This document shows, piece after piece, positions 5,500 to 60,084 of a stretch of DNA of 64,000 nt. Location: NCBI GenBank assembly GCA_900095095.1, contig FMBT01000379.1, forward strand, positions 1-64,000, written 5' to 3'. This stretch comes from Fragilariopsis cylindrus CCMP1102 (Eukaryota; Bacillariophyta; Bacillariophyceae; Bacillariales; Bacillariaceae). Position 1 is the stretch's first letter. Each line of letters starts with the position of its first letter. The position numbers and the translations under genes are program-made. The notes under the pieces are model-generated. The model saw only the letters and a program-made list of their open reading frames with translations. It ran no database searches and was not told the origin of the DNA.

Positions 5500-6858
5500 T
5501 TATTTATCATAAGTCGTCGTTGCTGTCGCATCGCAGCTATTATTAGCACCCCCAACTACAAAGGACGCATGTGTCAATAGTGTAGGCTCACGAAGACCAG
5601 CGTATTCGTCGTCGTTATCGTTATTCTCATCATAGATTGGTTCGCCGAAGTCGTTGTTGACTAATACAGGCTTGTTGTACTTGAACTTGCTGATGATTTT
5701 CTTGTTCTTTTTTACCACCGTGAGGTTTTTCTTCTTCTTCGTTGTTGCTCTTTTTACATCAGCATCTTCTATTTCTGTTGACAAGGAGTCGCGTGTACTA
5801 CTACTAGCACTACTTGCAGTTACAGTTACTAAAGCCACAATATCAGCTGTTAATTTACTAATTTTCATATATGCGTCATACATGTCTTGTTCTTTGCATT
5901 TAAAATTACCTTCCCAGTATTTATAATCAGAAGAAGAGGAAGAAAAATCTTCTTCAACGGCATCATTCTTATTATTGTTCCTGTTCAATACGTCCATAAT
6001 GACATCATCAACTTGTTCTTGTTGTTGTTGCTGTTCTTTTTGTGGTACAGGTAATTGATTCACTTCCGTTTTCGTTTGGAATACTAAGTTTCTTTCATAT
6101 TTTAATTCTTCATATCTCAATACTTGTGCCCAAGCAAGTAGTTCATCATCCGTTGGACGACGACGGCATTGTTCTTGTTCTTTCTGCGAAGGAGATGACG
6201 AAACCACATATGGTATCGCCTCTTCTTCTACTTGTTGTTGTGGTGTTACTAATGGAAGAGGATCAACAGCATCCTGTTGGTCCCAATCTTCAGCAATACC
6301 GCGTAACGTATTGTATTGTTCATCATTGATAACAGTAGCTCGTATTTGTTGTGCTTGCTGTTGCTGTTGTCGCTGCTGCTCATGCTGTTGTTCATGAAAT
6401 TCTGCTTCTTCTTCTGGTAGCAAAAATGGAATTGGTTCTACAGGAGAGGGCATCGTTGTAGTTTCTGCGTTGAAGCCGTCGTAGTTGTAGTTGTATAGGC
6501 CTTTGTATTTGACAGCTTCTGGTGAGATGAAGCCCGCTGTTGTGAAGTCCTGTTCTTGCTCTTGTTCTTGTGGTACTGTAAGGCAGCAGCAGTCGTCGTT
6601 AATATTAATACTACTAGTAGTATCAATCTTGCGTAAATCGACCTCTAAGTCGTCGTCTTCATTAATAAAATCAAGCAGAAGGTCGTCGTCATCCTTCTCG
6701 TCGACCATACACGCAGTATAGGTATCATCATCACAACTGGTTGCGCCAATCATCACATCAAGATCAAGCTGATCAAGATGATCGTGATCACTACCCGCGT
6801 AATCAGACACTGTATTAATCGAAATTGAAGTCGATTCATCCTCCACTGTTGACATCAT
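5500..6858 (-). CDS. Acidic Q-rich unknown protein, complete copy
   Basis: 452 residues, single exon, ATG at 6858 (a second ATG follows at once). The N-terminal 90 residues are very acidic. Residues 155-171 are Gln-rich, and a further Gln run lies near 275-281. A segment around 235-256 (PTDDELLAWAQVLRYEEL) looks like a charged helix. Residues 369-393 hold two Lys clusters (KKKK and KKNKK) that could act as a nuclear signal. There is no signal peptide or membrane segment. I do not recognise the family; a nuclear or scaffold role would be a guess. The left boundary of the 4706-bp duplication falls in this gene at 5642, after residue 405, so only this copy has the native last 47 residues (ending ATATTTYDK). 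Confidence 0.7.
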   Translation of the reverse strand: MMSTVEDESTSISINTVSDYAGSDHDHLDQLDLDVMIGATSCDDDTYTACMVDEKDDDDLLLDFINEDDDLEVDLRKIDTTSSININDDCCCLTVPQEQEQEQDFTTAGFISPEAVKYKGLYNYNYDGFNAETTTMPSPVEPIPFLLPEEEAEFHEQQHEQQRQQQQQAQQIRATVINDEQYNTLRGIAEDWDQQDAVDPLPLVTPQQQVEEEAIPYVVSSSPSQKEQEQCRRRPTDDELLAWAQVLRYEELKYERNLVFQTKTEVNQLPVPQKEQQQQQEQVDDVIMDVLNRNNNKNDAVEEDFSSSSSDYKYWEGNFKCKEQDMYDAYMKISKLTADIVALVTVTASSASSSTRDSLSTEIEDADVKRATTKKKKNLTVVKKNKKIISKFKYNKPVLVNNDFGEPIYDENNDNDDEYAGLREPTLLTHASFVVGGANNSCDATATTTYDK

Positions 6859-9821: not shown

Positions 9822-10275
9822 ATCCATTCTTGTCTAATATTTATTTATATAGCTGCCATATGAAGGGAAAGCCAATCCATCTTCCAAAATATACTACAGC
9901 AGGAAGAAGAGCAATTATCAACATCTCCATTTATAAGAATCAAGATCATGTGTATGTTGGAGCTTGTACAAGTAATTCCACCATAAACAGCAATTTTACT
10001 TGCGATGATTTTTAGGATCCATGCGCCTCTAAATTAGCTGCTACATGAAGACAAACGCCAGTCCAACTTTAAAAATCAATTACAGCAGAAAGAGCAATAT
10101 ACTTTATCTACATCTTCCTAAGAATCAATATCACGTTTATTTTGGAGCTTGTAGAAGTATTTTTCACCATAGACAGCAAGACCACAATGCAACACAGATA
10201 AACTGTAATTCTCTCATATGATCCACACAAGTCCTGTTCCACAATGCAACACAGATAGACTGTAATTCTCTTCTG
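9822..10275. repeat. Internal diverged tandem repeats in element spacer
   Basis: Two diverged copies of about 180 bp (about 9822-10005 and 10012-10180) each begin TTTTAGGATCCAT and end near CACCATA.ACAGCA. They are followed by two copies of about 66 bp (about 10189-10275) containing CACAATGCAACACAGATA and CTGTAATTCTCT. They form the spacer between the oppositely oriented element arms. The set is repeated at 14528-14981. Confidence 0.6.
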
Positions 10276-11564
10276 AATGGTTTTTTGGGCATGGAAATAT
10301 GACATGTTGGCCAAAATGCAATGTTTGTATTCTGGAGGCAAGGAGAATCGCCGAAGTCGTTGTTGACTAATACAGGCTTGTTGTACTTGAACTTGCTGAT
10401 GATTTTCTTGTTCTTTTTTACCACCGTGAGGTTTTTCTTCTTCTTCGTTGTTGCTCTTTTTACATCAGCATCTTCTATTTCTGTTGACAAGGAGTCGCGT
10501 GTACTACTACTAGCACTACTTGCAGTTACAGTTACTAAAGCCACAATATCAGCTGTTAATTTACTAATTTTCATATATGCGTCATACATGTCTTGTTCTT
10601 TGCATTTAAAATTACCTTCCCAGTATTTATAATCAGAAGAAGAGGAAGAAAAATCTTCTTCAACGGCATCATTCTTATTATTGTTCCTGTTCAATACGTC
10701 CATAATGACATCATCAACTTGTTCTTGTTGTTGTTGCTGTTCTTTTTGTGGTACAGGTAATTGATTCACTTCCGTTTTCGTTTGGAATACTAAGTTTCTT
10801 TCATATTTTAATTCTTCATATCTCAATACTTGTGCCCAAGCAAGTAGTTCATCATCCGTTGGACGACGACGGCATTGTTCTTGTTCTTTCTGCGAAGGAG
10901 ATGACGAAACCACATATGGTATCGCCTCTTCTTCTACTTGTTGTTGTGGTGTTACTAATGGAAGAGGATCAACAGCATCCTGTTGGTCCCAATCTTCAGC
11001 AATACCGCGTAACGTATTGTATTGTTCATCATTGATAACAGTAGCTCGTATTTGTTGTGCTTGCTGTTGCTGTTGTCGCTGCTGCTCATGCTGTTGTTCA
11101 TGAAATTCTGCTTCTTCTTCTGGTAGCAAAAATGGAATTGGTTCTACAGGAGAGGGCATCGTTGTAGTTTCTGCGTTGAAGCCGTCGTAGTTGTAGTTGT
11201 ATAGGCCTTTGTATTTGACAGCTTCTGGTGAGATGAAGCCCGCTGTTGTGAAGTCCTGTTCTTGCTCTTGTTCTTGTGGTACTGTAAGGCAGCAGCAGTC
11301 GTCGTTAATATTAATACTACTAGTAGTATCAATCTTGCGTAAATCGACCTCTAAGTCGTCGTCTTCATTAATAAAATCAAGCAGAAGGTCGTCGTCATCC
11401 TTCTCGTCGACCATACACGCAGTATAGGTATCATCATCACAACTGGTTGCGCCAATCATCACATCAAGATCAAGCTGATCAAGATGATCGTGATCACTAC
11501 CCGCGTAATCAGACACTGTATTAATCGAAATTGAAGTCGATTCATCCTCCACTGTTGACATCAT
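10164..11564 (-). CDS. Chimeric copy of Q-rich protein, novel C-terminus
   Basis: The second copy of the Q-rich gene starts at an ATG at 11564 and is identical to the first for residues 1-405. At the duplication junction (10347/10348) the frame leaves the original gene and continues into element DNA. It adds about 60 unrelated residues, beginning DSPCLQNTNIAFWP and ending ALWSCCLW, before a stop at 10164. The native last 47 residues are lost. The new tail is Cys/Trp/Arg-rich and comes from sequence that is non-coding elsewhere. Because upstream DNA is identical, the copy could be transcribed. I regard it as a truncated chimera of doubtful function. It could be an assembly artefact if the duplication is not real. 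Confidence 0.55.
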   Translation of the reverse strand: MMSTVEDESTSISINTVSDYAGSDHDHLDQLDLDVMIGATSCDDDTYTACMVDEKDDDDLLLDFINEDDDLEVDLRKIDTTSSININDDCCCLTVPQEQEQEQDFTTAGFISPEAVKYKGLYNYNYDGFNAETTTMPSPVEPIPFLLPEEEAEFHEQQHEQQRQQQQQAQQIRATVINDEQYNTLRGIAEDWDQQDAVDPLPLVTPQQQVEEEAIPYVVSSSPSQKEQEQCRRRPTDDELLAWAQVLRYEELKYERNLVFQTKTEVNQLPVPQKEQQQQQEQVDDVIMDVLNRNNNKNDAVEEDFSSSSSDYKYWEGNFKCKEQDMYDAYMKISKLTADIVALVTVTASSASSSTRDSLSTEIEDADVKRATTKKKKNLTVVKKNKKIISKFKYNKPVLVNNDFGDSPCLQNTNIAFWPTCHISMPKKPFRRELQSICVALWNRTCVDHMRELQFICVALWSCCLW

Positions 11565-31502: not shown

Positions 31503-32530
31503 ATAATAATATGATATGATGGCATGGATGGTATGATGGTAGCATGATGTAGGACTACTATATGTAGGATACTATATATCGTCAACGTTAAAAAATGTAA
31601 TGTGATGATGTTATGTAAATCAGCAAGAAGAAGACAAGGTAAGAGACAAATAGGAAATCAACTTTATAAGTACAGTATAAGTTATATATAATAGAAGATG
31701 ATCAATTAATAGGACTGGCATCAGTATACTTTATAAACTACTACTATTGTAGTTTTCGTGAGCATTGATAATAAGGATCAATACATATATTTATTAGAAA
31801 AGAACTTTTCCACCAACTTTTCAGTAGTAATATATATTATGATCAAGTATAGTCTTCTTGTATAGAAAAAAATATCTGAGTTTGAAAAAATTAGTTCCAC
31901 TTGCTGTCTATTTTGTGAGACCACACATGCCTCCCCATACATACACCTTTAAAATGACTGACTTTTGAATGACTAGTGATTCAAAATTAACACGTACATT
32001 CATATACTACTACTACTGAGATCACAAATGTCATTCTTCATGGCTGTATCTGCTATTAATATTACTATGTTTTCTCGTACTACTAGTATTATTATTAATG
32101 ACGAATACTTCTTTCATGTACAGTATCTGTGTGCTTGTTGTTATTTTGTTGGTATATATTTTACCTTAAAAAGACGAATCTAACATTTATTCTCGTTACC
32201 ATCAATCTTTATTCTATTCTTGTCTTGATCAGCATGAGTAATGCAAGTCGACTCGTTCATCCATTTGACTACAAATTTCGCTTAACTATATTTAACAACT
32301 ATACAATATATCAGGGTTTATATTTTAATTGCATACTATTATATTGTATTTAATTCCTTATGTTTAATTATTCCGCATGTTCTAATTGTTTAGTTCTATT
32401 GTTTCAGCATTTCAATGACTTCACGATTCATCTTCTTATTTGAATGTAATAATGAATATGGCAATGACAATGGCAGTGGTAGTAATGGCCATGGCAATTT
32501 GAAAGCGACGATCTTGATCTGTCATTGTCG
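31503..32530. other. Intergenic region
   Basis: No gene seen. AT-rich, with ATGATGG runs just after the transporter stop and GGCAATGGCAGTGG-type repeats at about 32460-32500, just before the LINE target site. Confidence 0.5.
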
Positions 32531-32544
32531 TTGGTGTTGGTGTT
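32531..32544 (+). repeat. Candidate LINE target-site duplication, left
   Basis: TTGGTGTTGGTGTT, identical to 36490-36503 on the other side of the LINE. The motif is low in complexity (GTT-rich), so a chance match cannot be excluded. Confidence 0.6.
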
Positions 32545-35500
32545 CTGTTCTGTTCTGTTCTGTTCTGGCCTCCATATAGTCGCAGGCTGCGGAGCTATCG
32601 GTGAGCACATGACTGCACCTGCCGCAGAGCCTGAGTCCTATATTAGACTCTGTCATCTTGGATCACTCGTGCTCCAGGGCACTCATCCTTCTGAAGTTCT
32701 ATCCAATGGGATAGATCTTGCTCCCACCAGAACTGAGTTCCGGAGGGAGTACCTGCACTTCTCGGAGTTGTCTTACACAACTCATAGATTGGTCTCTTTT
32801 CAACGTAGGTGAGAGCATGCTTCCGTCGCCGTGCAATGTACACTTGAACAGGAAGCAGGCCACAGGCCTTCATGGCTTCATCGGCAGGACAGTACACGTA
32901 GGTACCATCCTGTCGTCGTTTCGGTCTCTTGCCTGCAAGATTCCGAGCCGCGCGATGATGAAACCCCCGTACGGTGTGAAGCATACGTAAAGACCATACC
33001 CAGGATTCCGATCCATACAACAAGACAGATAATATCGCAGCCACATAGAATTTCCCACCAACCTCTGGAGAAGCTCCTTCTCTCGCAAGTAAACGAGAGA
33101 TCCGAGCAAGGCGCTTTCGGGCCTTGGAGAGATTCAGAAAGAGCGCCGGGAAATCAGAATCCCGCGAAGAAATCTGACGCCCCAAGTACTTAAAGTTCTC
33201 TACCTTCTTCAGTTCGATATCGTCAATAGTAAAAACCCGAGCCTGTGCTACCGAAGCAGCATGCTTGCGTTCCCGCTGTTGATTCCTCCGAATATTGGTC
33301 TTACACATTTTCGAGCCTTCATGGCCTCGACGTAGTGAGTGTAACGAAACTGATACCCCACATAGCTTGCAAAAGCAAGGGATGCTTCCGTCCTGCTCTA
33401 TATGCAAATTAAATGTGGGGTGTCGGTTAAAGAAATGACGTCTGAGGATAGACGCTGAGTTTGCCATATAATGACAATCATTCACTGGACAAGGCACCCT
33501 CTCCTGAGGATTCCTTGCCGTTCGAACGAAGCTGAGCTTGTACACACGGGGCGCTAACGTTGCTGGCTCGACAATAATTGAGCCAGAACAGTCACTTCCG
33601 TGCTGTGTACGTAGGTGAGATTTCAGGGAGCCTGCCGAAAGCCTCACATCACAAACGGGGCACACCACTCGGATGCACCTTCGTTTGCTGTAAGTCTCTC
33701 CGATGCCTTCATGTCGGCGTTTATAGCCTTCAATCGAACACCGATCCCGAATTTCTCCAGGATGGCAGATCATAACTTCGGTCTTGGTTGTATTCGGCTT
33801 CAGACCGGTGCAATTGCGAAAAATGTCACAGAGATGCTGGGTAGCATTCTGTAACCATTCTGGGTCCCGTGACCCTAATGCACCGTCATCAGCATAGAAC
33901 AGTGACGTTCTATCACTAATAGCATCACCTTCCAGTCCTGTGTTTGCCGACGTTATGTCCTCCATAACGTCAGCAAACCATTTCCGAACCACTGCATCAA
34001 CGAGTACATTGAATAGGACCGGAGATACAATACCTCCTTGGGTTACGCCACGTTCCGGTATAAATACTGATCCATGGTAGTTCCCCGTCCTGGCTACGCA
34101 TCGTTGGTTATCCCAGTAGAATTTGAGTAGGCCTAATGTATTAGGACCTACCCCATATCCTGCCAAGATTCCCAACAGTCGCTCCCGATCGACAGTATCA
34201 TAGGCTTTGCGTAGGTCAATAAAGACGTAATACAAAGTTTTCTGTACCATCACAGACAGTTGCTGCAGTAGCTTTGCTTCAATGCACGCGGTACCTGTCC
34301 CCCTGTTGGCAATAAAGCCGTGCAGAGAGTCATGGAATTGTATCTTACTTGCTATCCTGCGATTAATAATCGACTCAATAACTTTCCAAACAATTTCCAG
34401 GAGGCCAATCCCCCGGTAGTCACCACCGCCCTTCGGGATAAGGACCACTGTAGACCAAGACAACTGGGTAGGGACTTGACGTTCCTTAAAACAAAGTTGA
34501 ACTAACTTCACCACTCTGTTCCAGTTTTCTCGATCTGGGTTCTCTTCCCTCGTTGCGTCGAGAAGCCACTCCTTGAGCTTCTCTGCTCTAACTTTGGAAG
34601 GCCCGGGAGCCTTTCCATTTCTCAATTTCCGAACTGCATCAGCAATTTCGGAAGCTCCGGGAACAGCATCATCAATATCAAAGGGAGCTACAAGTATCGG
34701 AAGAGACTCTGGTGGTGAGTCTTTCGAGTACAGGTTGATACGATCATTTGTTACCTTCGTAAGGTCTTCTCTGGATGGTGGAGGAGGCCGTCCAGCAGCG
34801 TGGTGATACCAGCGCCGAACGATTTGCCAAGCCTCCCTAGTGTTGCCTGCACTAAGTTCCGCCTCCGCTGCAGCACCAGCTGCAGCGCACCGCCGTTTTC
34901 TATCCCCCGCGAGGGAGATTTTGAGACGACGGACGAGGCGACGGTATTCAGCTTGATTCTTTCCCGGAAGTCTGCTTAGGGCATTCTTCTGGTCCACAAT
35001 CCGCCACGACGCATCGGAGATCCAGCTGCTACGGGGACCCTTTCGTTTATCACTTGGGGCCGGCTTAGCTGCCGTCTCGATGTCGTGACACAAGCTGTCC
35101 ATCATCGTTGAAGGGCCCATTTTGGGGGTCCGGTGGGGGAACCGAGTTCTACCTTGGAGGTAGTTCTTGTTCTCCTTGAGTTTGTCAGAGTTTATCACAC
35201 TATAAACCAACTTGTGGTCAGTAGTGTAGTGGCGGGGATCGCAAATTCGGTACTTTCGTACCAATCGACGATCCGTGCAAAGAAAATAATCCGGTCGAGA
35301 CCAGAAAATCTTCCCCTCGCGTTCCTGATGCCAAGTAGAGCGCCGTCGGGGGCCCTTCTTGAAGTGGTAGTGCATATCGTACAAACCGGCGTCTGCCACG
35401 AGCTGTGCTATTTCCATATCTCGCTCCGATTCAGGTGAATGGAGGTCAATATTGAGGTCGCCTACCAGGATCACATCCTTCCGACGTTGGAAGCGATCTA

Positions 35501-36489
35501 GCGCAGCTGCGATATGAACTAAAGTGGTTGTATCCTTCGGTGGAACATAGGCCCCAACGATGCCGTATCTCTTGTTCCCGCTGACAATCTCTGCCGAGAT
35601 GACGTTAGGTCCGTGAAATATTGCTGATTCAACTTGCCAATAATTCGATTCCCTGTAGACTAAAGCTACTCCTCCCTGAGTGCGGCTGACAGCGTTGGTA
35701 GCCAATACGTGATAATCAGAAGAAAATCTCGTATGGATATCATCGGTCAGTTTTGTTTCCTGCAAGAAACAAACATCCACTCCCACTACACTCAGCGCTC
35801 GCAGCGCTGTCTCCAGTCTAGTATTTCTACCGTTTTGGATATTCCATGTCCCGATCGATATCTCCGTTGTATCTGGAGGGGACTCCGGTGGTTCCACTGC
35901 CGTCGCGCCTGCACCATCCTCCGGGGGAGGGGGGTGGTCGCTGTGAGCATTACCGCCGTTAGAATTAATATTAATTGTAACATTACTGCTACCGTTAATA
36001 TTAATATTAATATTAGTAGTGCCATTCCCTAGCATCGGTGCCTCCACTGTACCCGCCGGTACACCTGTTACACCCGTTGGTAATTTCTGTAGAGGAACGC
36101 CGTCCTCTGTTGAATTAAGTGGTTCCACAAACCGTTGTAAACCCCCCCTAATTAGGGGTTTAGTATATTCCTCTTGGCCGCCGTCCCTAGGGTCAATACT
36201 TGATTTCAATCTATTCCTCTCCCAAAAAAAAAAATTTAAGAAAGTGCAGGACACAATAATGAGTGCCATTGGGTCCCAGTGCTTCGATGACAAAGGCTGA
36301 TATGAAGCAGGCCTGTGTTGCCAAGACAGGGTACCGGATGAGTGTTTATAGCATGTCTCCCAGCAACTGGAGTCTTTTATTGTCATACCCTTGACTGCCA
36401 TTTTACTGATAATGGTATCCAGGCATATAAACTCCAATGGTTCACCCGTGCCTCGGGACAGAGCGCAGTTCGTCGGCGTACTCGGGCCA
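32545..36489 (-). mobile_element. Full-length non-LTR retrotransposon (LINE)
   Basis: Element of about 3945 bp on the minus strand, bounded by 14-bp direct repeats. Its 3' end (left) is an AGAAC-type tail, (CAGAA)n, of four to five pentamers (32543-32566 as CTGTT on the plus strand). Its 5' end (right) begins TGGCCCGAGTACGCCGACG. There is no poly-A tail. GC content is clearly higher than in all flanking DNA. The single large frame is intact, so insertion is recent. Confidence 0.85.
32643..36401 (-). CDS. LINE polyprotein: AP endonuclease, reverse transcriptase, zinc fingers
   Basis: 1252 residues from the first ATG at 36401 (MAVKGMTIKDSSCWE). The frame is open for 12 more codons upstream without ATG. 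Residues 1-175 are a variable leader with an Asn/Ile run. About 180-415 is an endonuclease/exonuclease/phosphatase domain: IGTWNIQNGR, FLQETKL, VLVGDLNIDLHS and TTDHKLVY hold the expected Asn, Glu, Asp/Asn and His residues. About 600-890 is a reverse transcriptase: LIPKGGGDYRGIGLLEI, FIDLRKAYDTVDRE, GVTQGGIVSPVLFNVL and the catalytic FYADDGAL. After it come two C2H2 fingers (CPVCDVRLSAGSLKSHLRTQH and CPVNDCHYMANS...HFFNRH) and a third Cys-rich unit (CFCKLCGVSV). A LINE tail follows with ISRLLAREG and LLYGSESWVW. All catalytic residues are present. No separate ORF1 or RNase H was found. Confidence 0.92.
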   Translation of the reverse strand: MAVKGMTIKDSSCWETCYKHSSGTLSWQHRPASYQPLSSKHWDPMALIIVSCTFLNFFFWERNRLKSSIDPRDGGQEEYTKPLIRGGLQRFVEPLNSTEDGVPLQKLPTGVTGVPAGTVEAPMLGNGTTNINININGSSNVTININSNGGNAHSDHPPPPEDGAGATAVEPPESPPDTTEISIGTWNIQNGRNTRLETALRALSVVGVDVCFLQETKLTDDIHTRFSSDYHVLATNAVSRTQGGVALVYRESNYWQVESAIFHGPNVISAEIVSGNKRYGIVGAYVPPKDTTTLVHIAAALDRFQRRKDVILVGDLNIDLHSPESERDMEIAQLVADAGLYDMHYHFKKGPRRRSTWHQEREGKIFWSRPDYFLCTDRRLVRKYRICDPRHYTTDHKLVYSVINSDKLKENKNYLQGRTRFPHRTPKMGPSTMMDSLCHDIETAAKPAPSDKRKGPRSSWISDASWRIVDQKNALSRLPGKNQAEYRRLVRRLKISLAGDRKRRCAAAGAAAEAELSAGNTREAWQIVRRWYHHAAGRPPPPSREDLTKVTNDRINLYSKDSPPESLPILVAPFDIDDAVPGASEIADAVRKLRNGKAPGPSKVRAEKLKEWLLDATREENPDRENWNRVVKLVQLCFKERQVPTQLSWSTVVLIPKGGGDYRGIGLLEIVWKVIESIINRRIASKIQFHDSLHGFIANRGTGTACIEAKLLQQLSVMVQKTLYYVFIDLRKAYDTVDRERLLGILAGYGVGPNTLGLLKFYWDNQRCVARTGNYHGSVFIPERGVTQGGIVSPVLFNVLVDAVVRKWFADVMEDITSANTGLEGDAISDRTSLFYADDGALGSRDPEWLQNATQHLCDIFRNCTGLKPNTTKTEVMICHPGEIRDRCSIEGYKRRHEGIGETYSKRRCIRVVCPVCDVRLSAGSLKSHLRTQHGSDCSGSIIVEPATLAPRVYKLSFVRTARNPQERVPCPVNDCHYMANSASILRRHFFNRHPTFNLHIEQDGSIPCFCKLCGVSVSLHSLRRGHEGSKMCKTNIRRNQQRERKHAASVAQARVFTIDDIELKKVENFKYLGRQISSRDSDFPALFLNLSKARKRLARISRLLAREGASPEVGGKFYVAAILSVLLYGSESWVWSLRMLHTVRGFHHRAARNLAGKRPKRRQDGTYVYCPADEAMKACGLLPVQVYIARRRKHALTYVEKRPIYELCKTTPRSAGTPSGTQFWWEQDLSHWIELQKDECPGARVIQDDRV

Positions 36490-56630: not shown

Positions 56631-57342
56631 TGTTTCAATATCTACACTTCTTACTTTTTCTATAACTACAGTAAGCTAGTCATATGAGATTTACTCTCAG
56701 TTTCGCCTTTCTCGAATATGATGATATTGTACCGCAACAAGGTTAAGGTATTATTATGCTGCTTTCGTGTTTTATTGATTTCGATTTATTATTCTCGTGA
56801 AAGATTTTGATGAAATAAATAATTTCAATCGTTGATAATTACGCAATGAAACGAAACGAAACGCGCATTCGTCATTTCCAAAAAATGTGATACAGTACTT
56901 CCTCCTTGCAACGCTAACTTCACCAAGTGCTATTGATTGGAATTATTAGACGATAAAGCGCTTTAAACTGCGAAAGTCTACCAACAAAATGCGAAATGTA
57001 TAGAAAAATAAAAATAAACGAAAATTTTAAAGGTTCAATAGGCTTTTATCGTCTAATAATTTCTAACAACAACGCGGTTTACAGTTAACGTTGCACAGAG
57101 GAAGTACGGATTGATTCATTCGAGTCAGTCGATTCATTCATTCACTCATGAGATGTGAGGATGTGCGTGCTTATTTTTATCGCGTGATTGATTGATTGAT
57201 TCGATTCATTCATTCGTTCATTTTCAAGATCGGCGAAGAAGGGTAACAATCAGAATTCGTAATAACATACACACCATAACACACAACACAAAGATTGCAG
57301 AGTTCACTGTAACAAAATTGAATCATCGAATCGAATACGGCA
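56631..57342. promoter_or_regulatory. Divergent intergenic region
   Basis: Between divergent genes. A TTAGACGATAAA / TTATCGTCTAATAA inverted pair lies at about 56946-56957 and 57047-57060. ATTCGAGTCAGTCGATTCATTC at about 57118 is a variant of the recurrent motif. No gene. Confidence 0.45.
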
Positions 57343-58514
57343 ATGGTACTACAATCGTTCCGTTTTCCCCGTAGTGTTTCATCATCAACAACATCAAAGG
57401 CAATTGCATTCTCATTTTTAGCAATTTCAGTTCTGATGTCAACATCGACAAGTGCTTTAGCATCAGCTACGGCTGTATCACAAGTACCAGAATATATGCA
57501 ATTATCATCCATAATGAAAGATACTAATTCATGGTTAAACAAGGCACAATTAATACCAATCGATTTTGACCAAAAATCTTTCTTAGGAGATGGTGCACAA
57601 AATATTGTCAAAGAAAAAGATTTACTTTTGAAGGGTAATGAAGTGGTGCAACGTAATATGGGAAAATATGGTAGTATTGCCTTTATTGTTCGTCGTCCTG
57701 GATGAGTGTTATGCCGTGAACATGGTCAACAATTGACTGAACTACACAACGCGGCAACAGCAACAACGAATGACGATGATGATGATGGACTAAATTTAAA
57801 TGGATTTGATTTATTTGGTATTATTAAAGAAACTGGTGTGGTACGTACTGTGTAGTTAAGTTATTGTGTTATTGTGCTATATTATGTTGTTGTTGTTGCT
57901 GTTGTTGTTGCTGTTTGCTGTTGCTGTGCTATGCTGTTGTTTATAATGCTACGCCGTACTAGGTTTTCTCCCACCACCTCACACTCTTGTTCTTACCCCA
58001 CCCTCGTTCGTCACGACCCTCTACTGCTGCTGCTGCTGCTGCTGCTTCTCCACTATGACTATTTACTATCCTACCAAATACTAAAAAGGATGATGCTGGA
58101 TTATTAGATTTTTATAATGATCATTATACATATCCAATCTATCGTGATATCAATTTAAATTTTTATCAATCTTTTGGAGTCAAAGCAAAAATTACTGATC
58201 ACATGTCATGGTCGACACTCTTCAATCCATTTAAGGCCTATAAAGGTATACAAAAAATGAATGAAAGGATGACCAGTAAAAAATTAAAAGGTAATTTAAT
58301 TGGTGAAGGATTAAAGACGGGTGGTATTATAATTTTTGGAACCGATGGTCAACCAAAATATGCTTATCCAGAAATTACTGGTCAAGAATTAAATGTAAAG
58401 GATTTATTATGTGCCATTCAATCGGTACGACGTACTAGTATTGGTGATGACAATGACAATGATAAAAGTCGTAGTGGTGGTGGTGGTGATGGTGATAAAA
58501 CAAACGAATTGTAA
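57343..58514 (+). CDS. Selenoprotein U-like peroxiredoxin (AhpC-TSA_2/PRXL2), Sec at TGA 57703
   Basis: Exon 1 is 57343-57840, the intron 57841-58088 (GTACGTACTG...TACTAAAAAG, phase 0), exon 2 58089-58514. This gives 307 residues if the in-frame TGA at 57703-57705 is read as selenocysteine (residue 121). ATG 57343 begins MVLQSFRFPRS; a hydrophobic stretch (about 20-40) is a signal peptide or anchor. The redox centre reads FIVRRPG-TGA-VLCREHGQQ, i.e. U-x-x-C exactly where relatives have RRPG(C/U)xxCRE, so the TGA is Sec and not a break. Exon 2 continues the thioredoxin-like fold: AGLLDFYNDHYTYPIYRDIN, FYQSFGVKAK, LIGEGLKTGGIIIFGTDGQP. A SECIS hairpin follows the stop by about 50 nt. The protein likely acts as a membrane-associated or secretory thiol/selenol reductase. 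Without Sec insertion it would stop after 120 residues. Confidence 0.88.
57841..58088 (+). other. Intron of selenoprotein gene
   Basis: Donor GTACGTACTG, acceptor TACTAAAAAG. It contains GTTGTTGTTGCTG and CTGCTGCTGCTG runs. It lies downstream of the Sec codon, so the TGA is more than 130 nt upstream of an exon junction; a stop there would be expected to trigger nonsense-mediated decay if not recoded. Confidence 0.7.
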
Positions 58515-58566
58515 AAACAACAACAGGAACTCATTTTTAAATCATACTGACATAGTATCAAGACAT

Positions 58567-58654
58567 TATAGTATATTCATGAATGACAGGAAAACCAAGC
58601 ACCAAAAAAAAACGACTGGTAGATGCGTTTTCCTTGAAAAATGGAAATATTATA
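58567..58654 (+). promoter_or_regulatory. SECIS element in 3' untranslated region
   Basis: Fits the eukaryotic selenocysteine insertion hairpin. Helix I: 58567-58580 pairs with 58641-58654, 13 of 14 positions including two G-U pairs. Core: AUGA at 58583-58586 faces UGAA at 58635-58638, allowing the tandem G.A pairs. Helix II: AGGAAAAC (58588-58595) pairs perfectly with GUUUUCCU (58627-58634). Ten bases after AUGA an unpaired AA (58597-58598) stands before a small upper stem, GCACC (599-603) with GG/UGC (618-626), closed by an A-rich loop. An AA bulge plus an extra upper stem is the form 2 layout. It lies 53 nt after the stop at 58514. Confidence 0.88.
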
Positions 58655-58967
58655 TTTTTGTATACATTTAGTATTATTTATTAAATATAACATATTAGAA
58701 TCAGAAAACTACGGTATCTACATGTACTCGATCGATCGTTCCCATTCTTTCTTTTCTGTCAAAATTTGACGGCGTCTATTAACTAGTCCTAGCTACTACG
58801 ATTCGATTCATTTTGTTCTACTGTACTTTTTTCATCACAGTTGAAAGACGGGTTTTTGATCTGCAATTCGTTTGCATTCTTTCTTTATCCTTCGACTTAC
58901 GATCGTCATGCATGCATCCTTCATCATATCATATCATATCATAGTTTTGTTTGCTTCTGCATGATTT
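58655..58967. other. Intergenic, convergent gene ends
   Basis: No gene. CATCATATCATATCATATCAT at about 58921-58943. It contains the 3' untranslated region of the minus-strand YrhK-like gene. Confidence 0.45.
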
Positions 58968-60084
58968 TTATGCGGATACATGTTCCGTATCCGTCTTGTT
59001 CTCAATTTGTTTTTTTGGCATGATTTCTGATAGTGATGATTTCGAAGATGGTTCTGCTGTTGCTGAAGTACCTCTGTCGTTATTTCTATTTCTATTCCTA
59101 CTTCTCTTGTTGTTATTGTTATTGTTATTGTTATTGTTATTGTTATTGGTATTGGTATTGGTATTGGTATTATTAAACCCTAACCTTTCATCATCATCCT
59201 CATCTTCAACAACATGAAAAAAGTCTAAATCACGTAAATCATGAAAACGACGGATATCCAATATACCACAAAGTAAAAACAATACAGAACCAAAAGTATA
59301 CATCCATGCTGCTGCAGTTTTTGAGTCATATTTATCCTTTTCATCAGTAAATGTGTACGTATAGGGAAAGCTAGCACAAAAAAACATGGTACTACCAATG
59401 GTATATAACATGGAAACAGTATTTGCCATCTGAGCTGATTTACTATCCGGTGAATCCCATATTTGTAAAGAATTCACAAATGCACCAAAGATGAAGAATG
59501 AATCCGCTACCAATCACAAATACCCAACCACCGGTGTTTGGATAATATAAAAATAATACAGAACCAACAATAAACAATATACAACCAATACCATATAATA
59601 TACTGGCAATAAATTCTAGTTTTCGTGAACTTTTATCATTGTGATGATTAAAGCTCGAATGTCTTTCTGCTCCTGTTCCGTCCAGTTCTACTTTCTTTCC
59701 ATTACCATCACCATCACCATTATTAGCACTATTAAAAAACGCTGCCGCTTCGGCTGCTGCTTGTTCTTTTGATTTTGTGGCTGCCTTATATGCTTCTACA
59801 AAGTCACTAATTGATATCCATAGTAATAATACAGATGCCACAATAAATAAATATTCACCAATATTATAACCTGGATATCTATCTTCCATGCTTGGTAAAA
59901 AGAAGACGGAACCGATAATAAAACCAACGGATGCCAGTATATATAATATACCATCAATATCTTCCACTAAATGATCAATATTTTGTTTCGATTCTTCTGC
60001 TGATGCAATTAAACAAACTAAACAGGATGGAAAATATGATTCAGCCATATGCCGTTCTCGAAAATTTACTGTTAGACGAGGCAT
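58968..60084 (-). pseudogene. Multi-span YrhK-like membrane protein with one frame break
   Basis: From ATG 60084 (MPRLTVNFRERHMAES) the first frame reads to about residue 195. Near 59500 the coding signal moves to the next frame (SFFIFGAFVNSLQIWDSP) and continues to 58968. Deleting one G in GGTAGCGGATTC would join them as FVIGS-DSFFIFGAF. No intron fits. The protein has about eight hydrophobic segments in pairs, each with an IGSVFFL-, IVGSVLFLYY- or TFGSVLFLLCGI-like motif followed by an exit such as SDFVEAYK, NSLQIWDS or LDIRRFHDL. This is the pattern of YrhK-type domains repeated in tandem. Function unknown. The C-terminus holds an (N)n run from AAT/AAC repeats. Either a sequencing error or a recent frameshift. 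Confidence 0.65.

Follow-up and report, generated by a model that had tools for sequence, protein, structure and literature searches.

A probable selenoprotein U gene with an in-frame TGA and a SECIS-type hairpin in the diatom Fragilariopsis cylindrus

The 64-kb stretch of DNA analyzed here (the window) contains a two-exon gene in which a single in-frame TGA occupies the first position of a conserved redox motif and a SECIS-type hairpin follows the stop codon. We consider it very probable that the gene belongs to the nuclear genome of a diatom and encodes SelU, a member of the AhpC-TSA_2/PRXL2 thioredoxin-fold family, that the hairpin acts as a eukaryotic SECIS element, and that UGA 121 specifies selenocysteine (Sec). 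On the combined sequence evidence, a genuine selenoprotein of the SelU type is the most likely product.

The gene begins at ATG 57343 on the forward strand. Exon 1 (57343..57840, codons 1 to 166) and exon 2 (58089..58514, codons 167 to 307 followed by TAA at 58512-58514) are separated by a 248-nt GT-AG intron in phase 0 (57841..58088), which reads GTACGT...AAAAAG, falls between the codons GTG and GAT, and has its junction spanned by the family match described below. If this intron is retained, the frame reaches a TAG after four intron codons. Spliced and translated with TGA as Sec, the product is 307 amino acids long and contains exactly one in-frame TGA, at codon 121 (57703..57705). A reading made earlier from the sequence alone had proposed that the frame halts at TGA 57703 inside RRPG-x-VLCRE and that coding resumes beyond it across a phase-keeping intron, and both proposals are borne out, with the position and codon number as claimed and exon 2 continuing in frame for 141 codons to its TAA. 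Gene-calling software for which TGA is always a stop would cut the protein at 120 amino acids or split the gene, so annotation of this locus needs care. A hydrophobic stretch near the N terminus (residues about 18 to 34, 57394..57444), with a Kyte-Doolittle mean peaking at 2.04 over the 15 residues from residue 20, hints at a possible signal peptide or membrane anchor.

The remainder of the window has several features of its own. Convergent to the SelU gene are adjoining, overlapping frames on the reverse strand (58968-60084), both with YrhK-like domains, that are perhaps one spliced gene. A long LINE-like frame on the reverse strand at 32643-36437, in a stretch of raised G+C content (0.475 over 32001-36000), encodes an endonuclease domain (PF03372) and a reverse transcriptase domain (PF00078). 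Two further reverse-strand frames about 4.7 kb apart (5500-6858 and 10164-11564) have a long N-terminal part in common and differ in their C termini, and a 300-nt stretch is identical between them; they are probably the result of a recent duplication.

Assignment to the AhpC-TSA_2 family rests on the match of the spliced protein to Pfam PF13911 over residues 151 to 259 (42.4 bits against a cut-off of 27, E 1e-10). Exon 2 alone gives a match at E 6.9e-10, and exon 1 by itself gives none because the part of the model that is matched comes after the redox motif. That motif, RRPG-U-VLCRE (UxxC, residues 117-126, 57691..57720), was placed by alignment. With Cys entered in place of Sec, the protein matched two PDB sequences at E <= 1, both prostamide/prostaglandin F synthase (9us9, E 0.008; 9usa, E 0.27, with an alignment that begins downstream of the redox motif). 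In 9us9, which we take to be human PRXL2B, RRFGCVVCRW lies without gaps under the query RRPGCVLCRE, so that TGA 121 corresponds to the first Cys of CxxC, presumably the catalytic one. PRXL2A is the Cys form of SELENOU. The 9us9 match extends over residues 109-254 but is weak, and this counts against the SelU reading. Even so, the sequence-only assignment of the TGA to an AhpC-TSA_2/PRXL2 redox center agrees with both the Pfam match and the aligned synthase motif.

A genome-wide search with PF13911 returned four matches, namely, exon 2 of the SelU gene and one each on contigs C306, C97, and C62. The C306 gene (496728-500333, 38.8 bits) reads RSLGUPLCQE, with its TGA at the same column as that of SelU, and is thus a second gene of this genome with TGA there. 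Homologues of the window gene therefore have Cys (9us9) or TGA (C306) at residue 121, as would be expected of a Cys/Sec position. The UxxC motif stands in an RRxG[C/U]xxCR context in the SelU gene, and the C306 gene departs from it (RSLGUPLCQ). The C97 and C62 matches fall under the cut-off, and the stretches read there hold no RRxGUxxC-like motif. The SelU protein as a query against its own genome matched only its own two exons. Searches for more distant relatives yielded no match to exon 1 in a phage collection, 21 pattern matches in viral contigs of which none was confirmed, and 84 matches to two peptide patterns in a prokaryote genome collection, none of them confirmed by tblastn; that the viral-contig and prokaryote scans revealed no orthologue beyond this genome counts against the SelU reading.

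The alternative that survives best is that the gene encodes a selenoprotein of the AhpC-TSA_2 superfamily that is not orthologous to animal SelU and belongs to another UxxC subfamily, akin to SELENOL or AhpC_b. One such diatom UxxC family, AhpC_b, is described for Thalassiosira oceanica in the consulted part of PMC7539508, and the sole NCBIfam match of our protein is to SelL_rel_redox (residues 116-138), at 16.3 bits far under the cut-off of 120. Against this stand the PF13911 match above its cut-off over residues 151-259 and the fact that both PDB matches at E <= 1, the better at E 0.008, are to prostamide/prostaglandin F synthase. We regard membership in another UxxC subfamily as unlikely and retain the assignment to SelU.

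The SECIS-type hairpin occupies 58559..58660, and its AUGA core (58583..58586) begins 68 nt past the SelU stop. Helix II pairs 58588..58595 with 58627-58634 in 8 bp with no mismatch, an AA motif (58597..58598) lies in the apical part ten bases 3' of AUGA, the 3' core UGA follows at 58635..58637, and helix I scores 13 of 14 positions, so that the SECIS architecture previously proposed after the stop is present in the sequence. The region 58555-58660 folds at -22.0 kcal/mol, compared with -12.2 (standard deviation 2.8) for shuffled sequences (z -3.5; none of 200 shuffles as good). Two aspects of the folding count against the element: the shorter region 58580-58645, which leaves out most of helix I, reaches only z -2.1, with 9 of 200 shuffles as good, and in the minimum-energy structure the AA motif has its first A paired with a U, a small departure from the canonical SECIS. 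An initial scan of both strands of the window gave 37 cores with some helix II, among which the SelU hairpin alone scored 7. Under a stricter descriptor (the core, 7 bp or more in helix II, and AA or CC), six places on the two strands of the 64-kb window fit, and helix I scored 13/14 at the SelU hairpin and no higher than 10 at any of the others. Of 20,000 random 250-nt sequences drawn from a first-order Markov (Markov-1) model, 94 satisfied this descriptor and 1 had a helix I score of at least 11 as well; the descriptors were drawn up with the SelU hairpin in view, and these chance figures therefore flatter it.

Covariance-type scoring, suggested earlier as a check on the hairpin, did not detect it. 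No Rfam family reached its gathering score in the window, a scan of 57300-59300 at E <= 10 returned four matches, none to SECIS and none near the gathering score, and Rfam SECIS_1 (RF00031) had no match at E <= 10 across the whole genome among the best candidates, which were those scored. The lack of a SECIS_1 match at the hairpin counts against the SelU reading. The model is silent genome-wide, however, although five or more further genes have TGA at a Sec position, and therefore seems blind to this genome; its silence at the SelU hairpin seems to be little evidence against a SECIS there.

These other genes include SelT on C79, with TGA in CVSUGSK, and glutathione peroxidase (GPx) frames on C67, C464, and C90, with TGA in VASQUG. 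Two of the GPx frames, those on C67 and C464, closely resemble each other and are perhaps allelic. We take the TGA positions in these genes and in SPS2 (below) to be known Sec sites. On C723, two Rdx (PF10262) matches lie in a stop-free frame of 552 amino acids, unlike the TGA-bearing SelT of C79. A loose SECIS descriptor found candidates in 6 of 8 stretches 3' of Sec genes (SelU included), and because 1,133 of 3,000 random 1,200-nt sequences also contained one, such candidates support nothing alone. With minimum scores of 7 for helix II and 11 for helix I, SelU and one GPx gene (L024) passed, 2 of 8 stretches versus 80 of 3,000 random sequences. The case that descriptor scans make for SECIS elements in the other Sec genes is thus weak. 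Downstream of the C306 gene we found no convincing SECIS: two descriptor scans returned none and one returned weak candidates only, and a larger hairpin there was chosen by eye and then folded.

The Sec machinery on which the sequence-only reading depends is present in the genome (an assembly of 67.9 Mb in 818 contigs) in the form of tRNA-Sec, SepSecS, a Sec-containing SPS2, and eEFSec, with a weak match for PSTK. A search of the same assembly for silicon transporters gave 27 matches, all over the cut-off and the best at 757 bits, and none in 14 controls, which points to a diatom as the host. SepSecS is found on C651 (220 bits), and SPS2 on C53, with TGA in KGUACK and a match of equal score on C220. 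An eEFSec gene on C108 has two PF21208 matches over the cut-off and a single open frame with TLVDCPGHASLIRTIIGG, which we take to be the eEFSec signature. The PSTK match, at 27.7 bits against a cut-off of 382, counts against the SelU reading. TIGR00475 (selB) gave 36 matches in the genome, none over the cut-off, with C108 fourth in the list. Those other TIGR00475 matches that were read were rejected as eEFSec; by their motifs they are presumably factors of the IF2, EF-Tu, EF-G, eIF5B, eRF3/HBS1, and GTPBP types.

With hairpin and machinery in hand, the two remaining alternatives can be weighed. The gene could be degenerating, with the TGA a true stop and the frame and hairpin beyond it remnants or coincidence, an idea to which the single copy in the genome lends something, no allele having been found for comparison. 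It is very improbable given that the only stop in 307 codons sits at the codon where Sec is expected, that a SECIS-type hairpin is in place, and that the genome has the Sec machinery. Readthrough of the TGA by another tRNA, without Sec, has nothing positive in its favor, and with the SECIS-type hairpin, the Sec column, eEFSec, and tRNA-Sec all present we give it practically no credence. Decoding of UGA 121 as Sec in a SelU protein is the reading we carry forward.

The tRNA-Sec genes of this genome are multiplied. RF01852 had 15 matches, 13 of them over the cut-off, on five contigs (C69, C547, C56, C138, and C678), arranged as arrays of three on four contigs and a single gene on C678. Of these 13, ARAGORN recognized 12 as tRNA-SeC (anticodon TCA). 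Some copies look unsound: the one that ARAGORN missed, third in the C56 array, carries a mismatch in its acceptor stem, and the third gene on C138 is a different version. The flanks of C69 and C547, and likewise those of C56 and C138, are about 99% identical across several kilobases, and each of these contig pairs therefore looks like the two haplotypes of a single locus. Counted in this way, the genes look like sets of 3, 3, and 1, or about seven per haploid set at three loci. Contig pairs with equal match scores were also seen elsewhere (C53/C220, C322/C451, and C90/C597), which suggests that both haplotypes are partly retained in the assembly. Seven of the 13 tRNA-Sec sequences are distinct, the D stem occurs in three paired (compensated) versions, and the C678 gene has a compensated change in the anticodon stem. 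There is precedent for multiplied tRNA-Sec genes with compensatory changes in PMC5330540, the consulted part of which lists eleven non-identical tRNA-Sec predictions for Fragilariopsis cylindrus; nine are undisrupted, and among those nine, three show compensatory changes. The portion of PMC8329260 consulted mentions a tRNA-SeC in a diatom and does not mention arrays. A more elaborate proposal, that SelU is secretory or plastid bound, that Sec decoding has been built up by multiplied and maybe specialized tRNA-Sec genes, and that SelU could demand extra supply, strikes us as doubtful.

From knowledge of the family and the pathway we infer how the SelU product would be made, act, and be located. 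The SECIS would recruit SBP2 and eEFSec with Sec-tRNA(Sec), and UGA 121 would then be decoded as Sec. In the UxxC center, Sec would attack and Cys124 resolve, and the product would most likely be a thiol/disulfide or peroxide reductase. The protein might be secretory or might reside in a membrane-bound compartment.

Sec-containing SelU proteins in diatoms are already described, with two SelU listed for Thalassiosira pseudonana in the consulted part of PMC2375036, and the gene presented here is an ordinary member of that family. According to the portion of PMC7539508 covered, SELENOU is one of four selenoproteins found with Sec in over half of 36 algal genomes; diatoms have 20 to 44 selenoprotein genes. 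Vertebrate SelU is treated in PMC3316567, of which a part was consulted, and the main text of PMC6627142 mentions neither "SelU" nor "SELENOU". Of the known systems, AhpC_b of Thalassiosira oceanica is likewise a UxxC selenoprotein from a diatom and has an AhpC/TSA domain; it differs in that its relatives are prokaryotic only, as stated in the section of PMC7539508 consulted, and it was compared with our gene by description alone. Prostamide/prostaglandin F synthase (9us9) has RRFGCVVCR in gap-free register with RRPGUVLCR and differs in carrying Cys for Sec and in its substrate and organism. The gene shares with SelU (SELENOU) the AhpC-TSA_2 domain, Sec in UxxC at the Cys column of the family, and a SECIS-type hairpin after the stop. 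Its own features are the N-terminal hydrophobic extension and an Asp-rich insert past the motif (residues about 137-148), where the other two sequences in the alignment with the C306 gene are gapped. The known set grows by one diatom SelU whose SECIS-type hairpin is clear.
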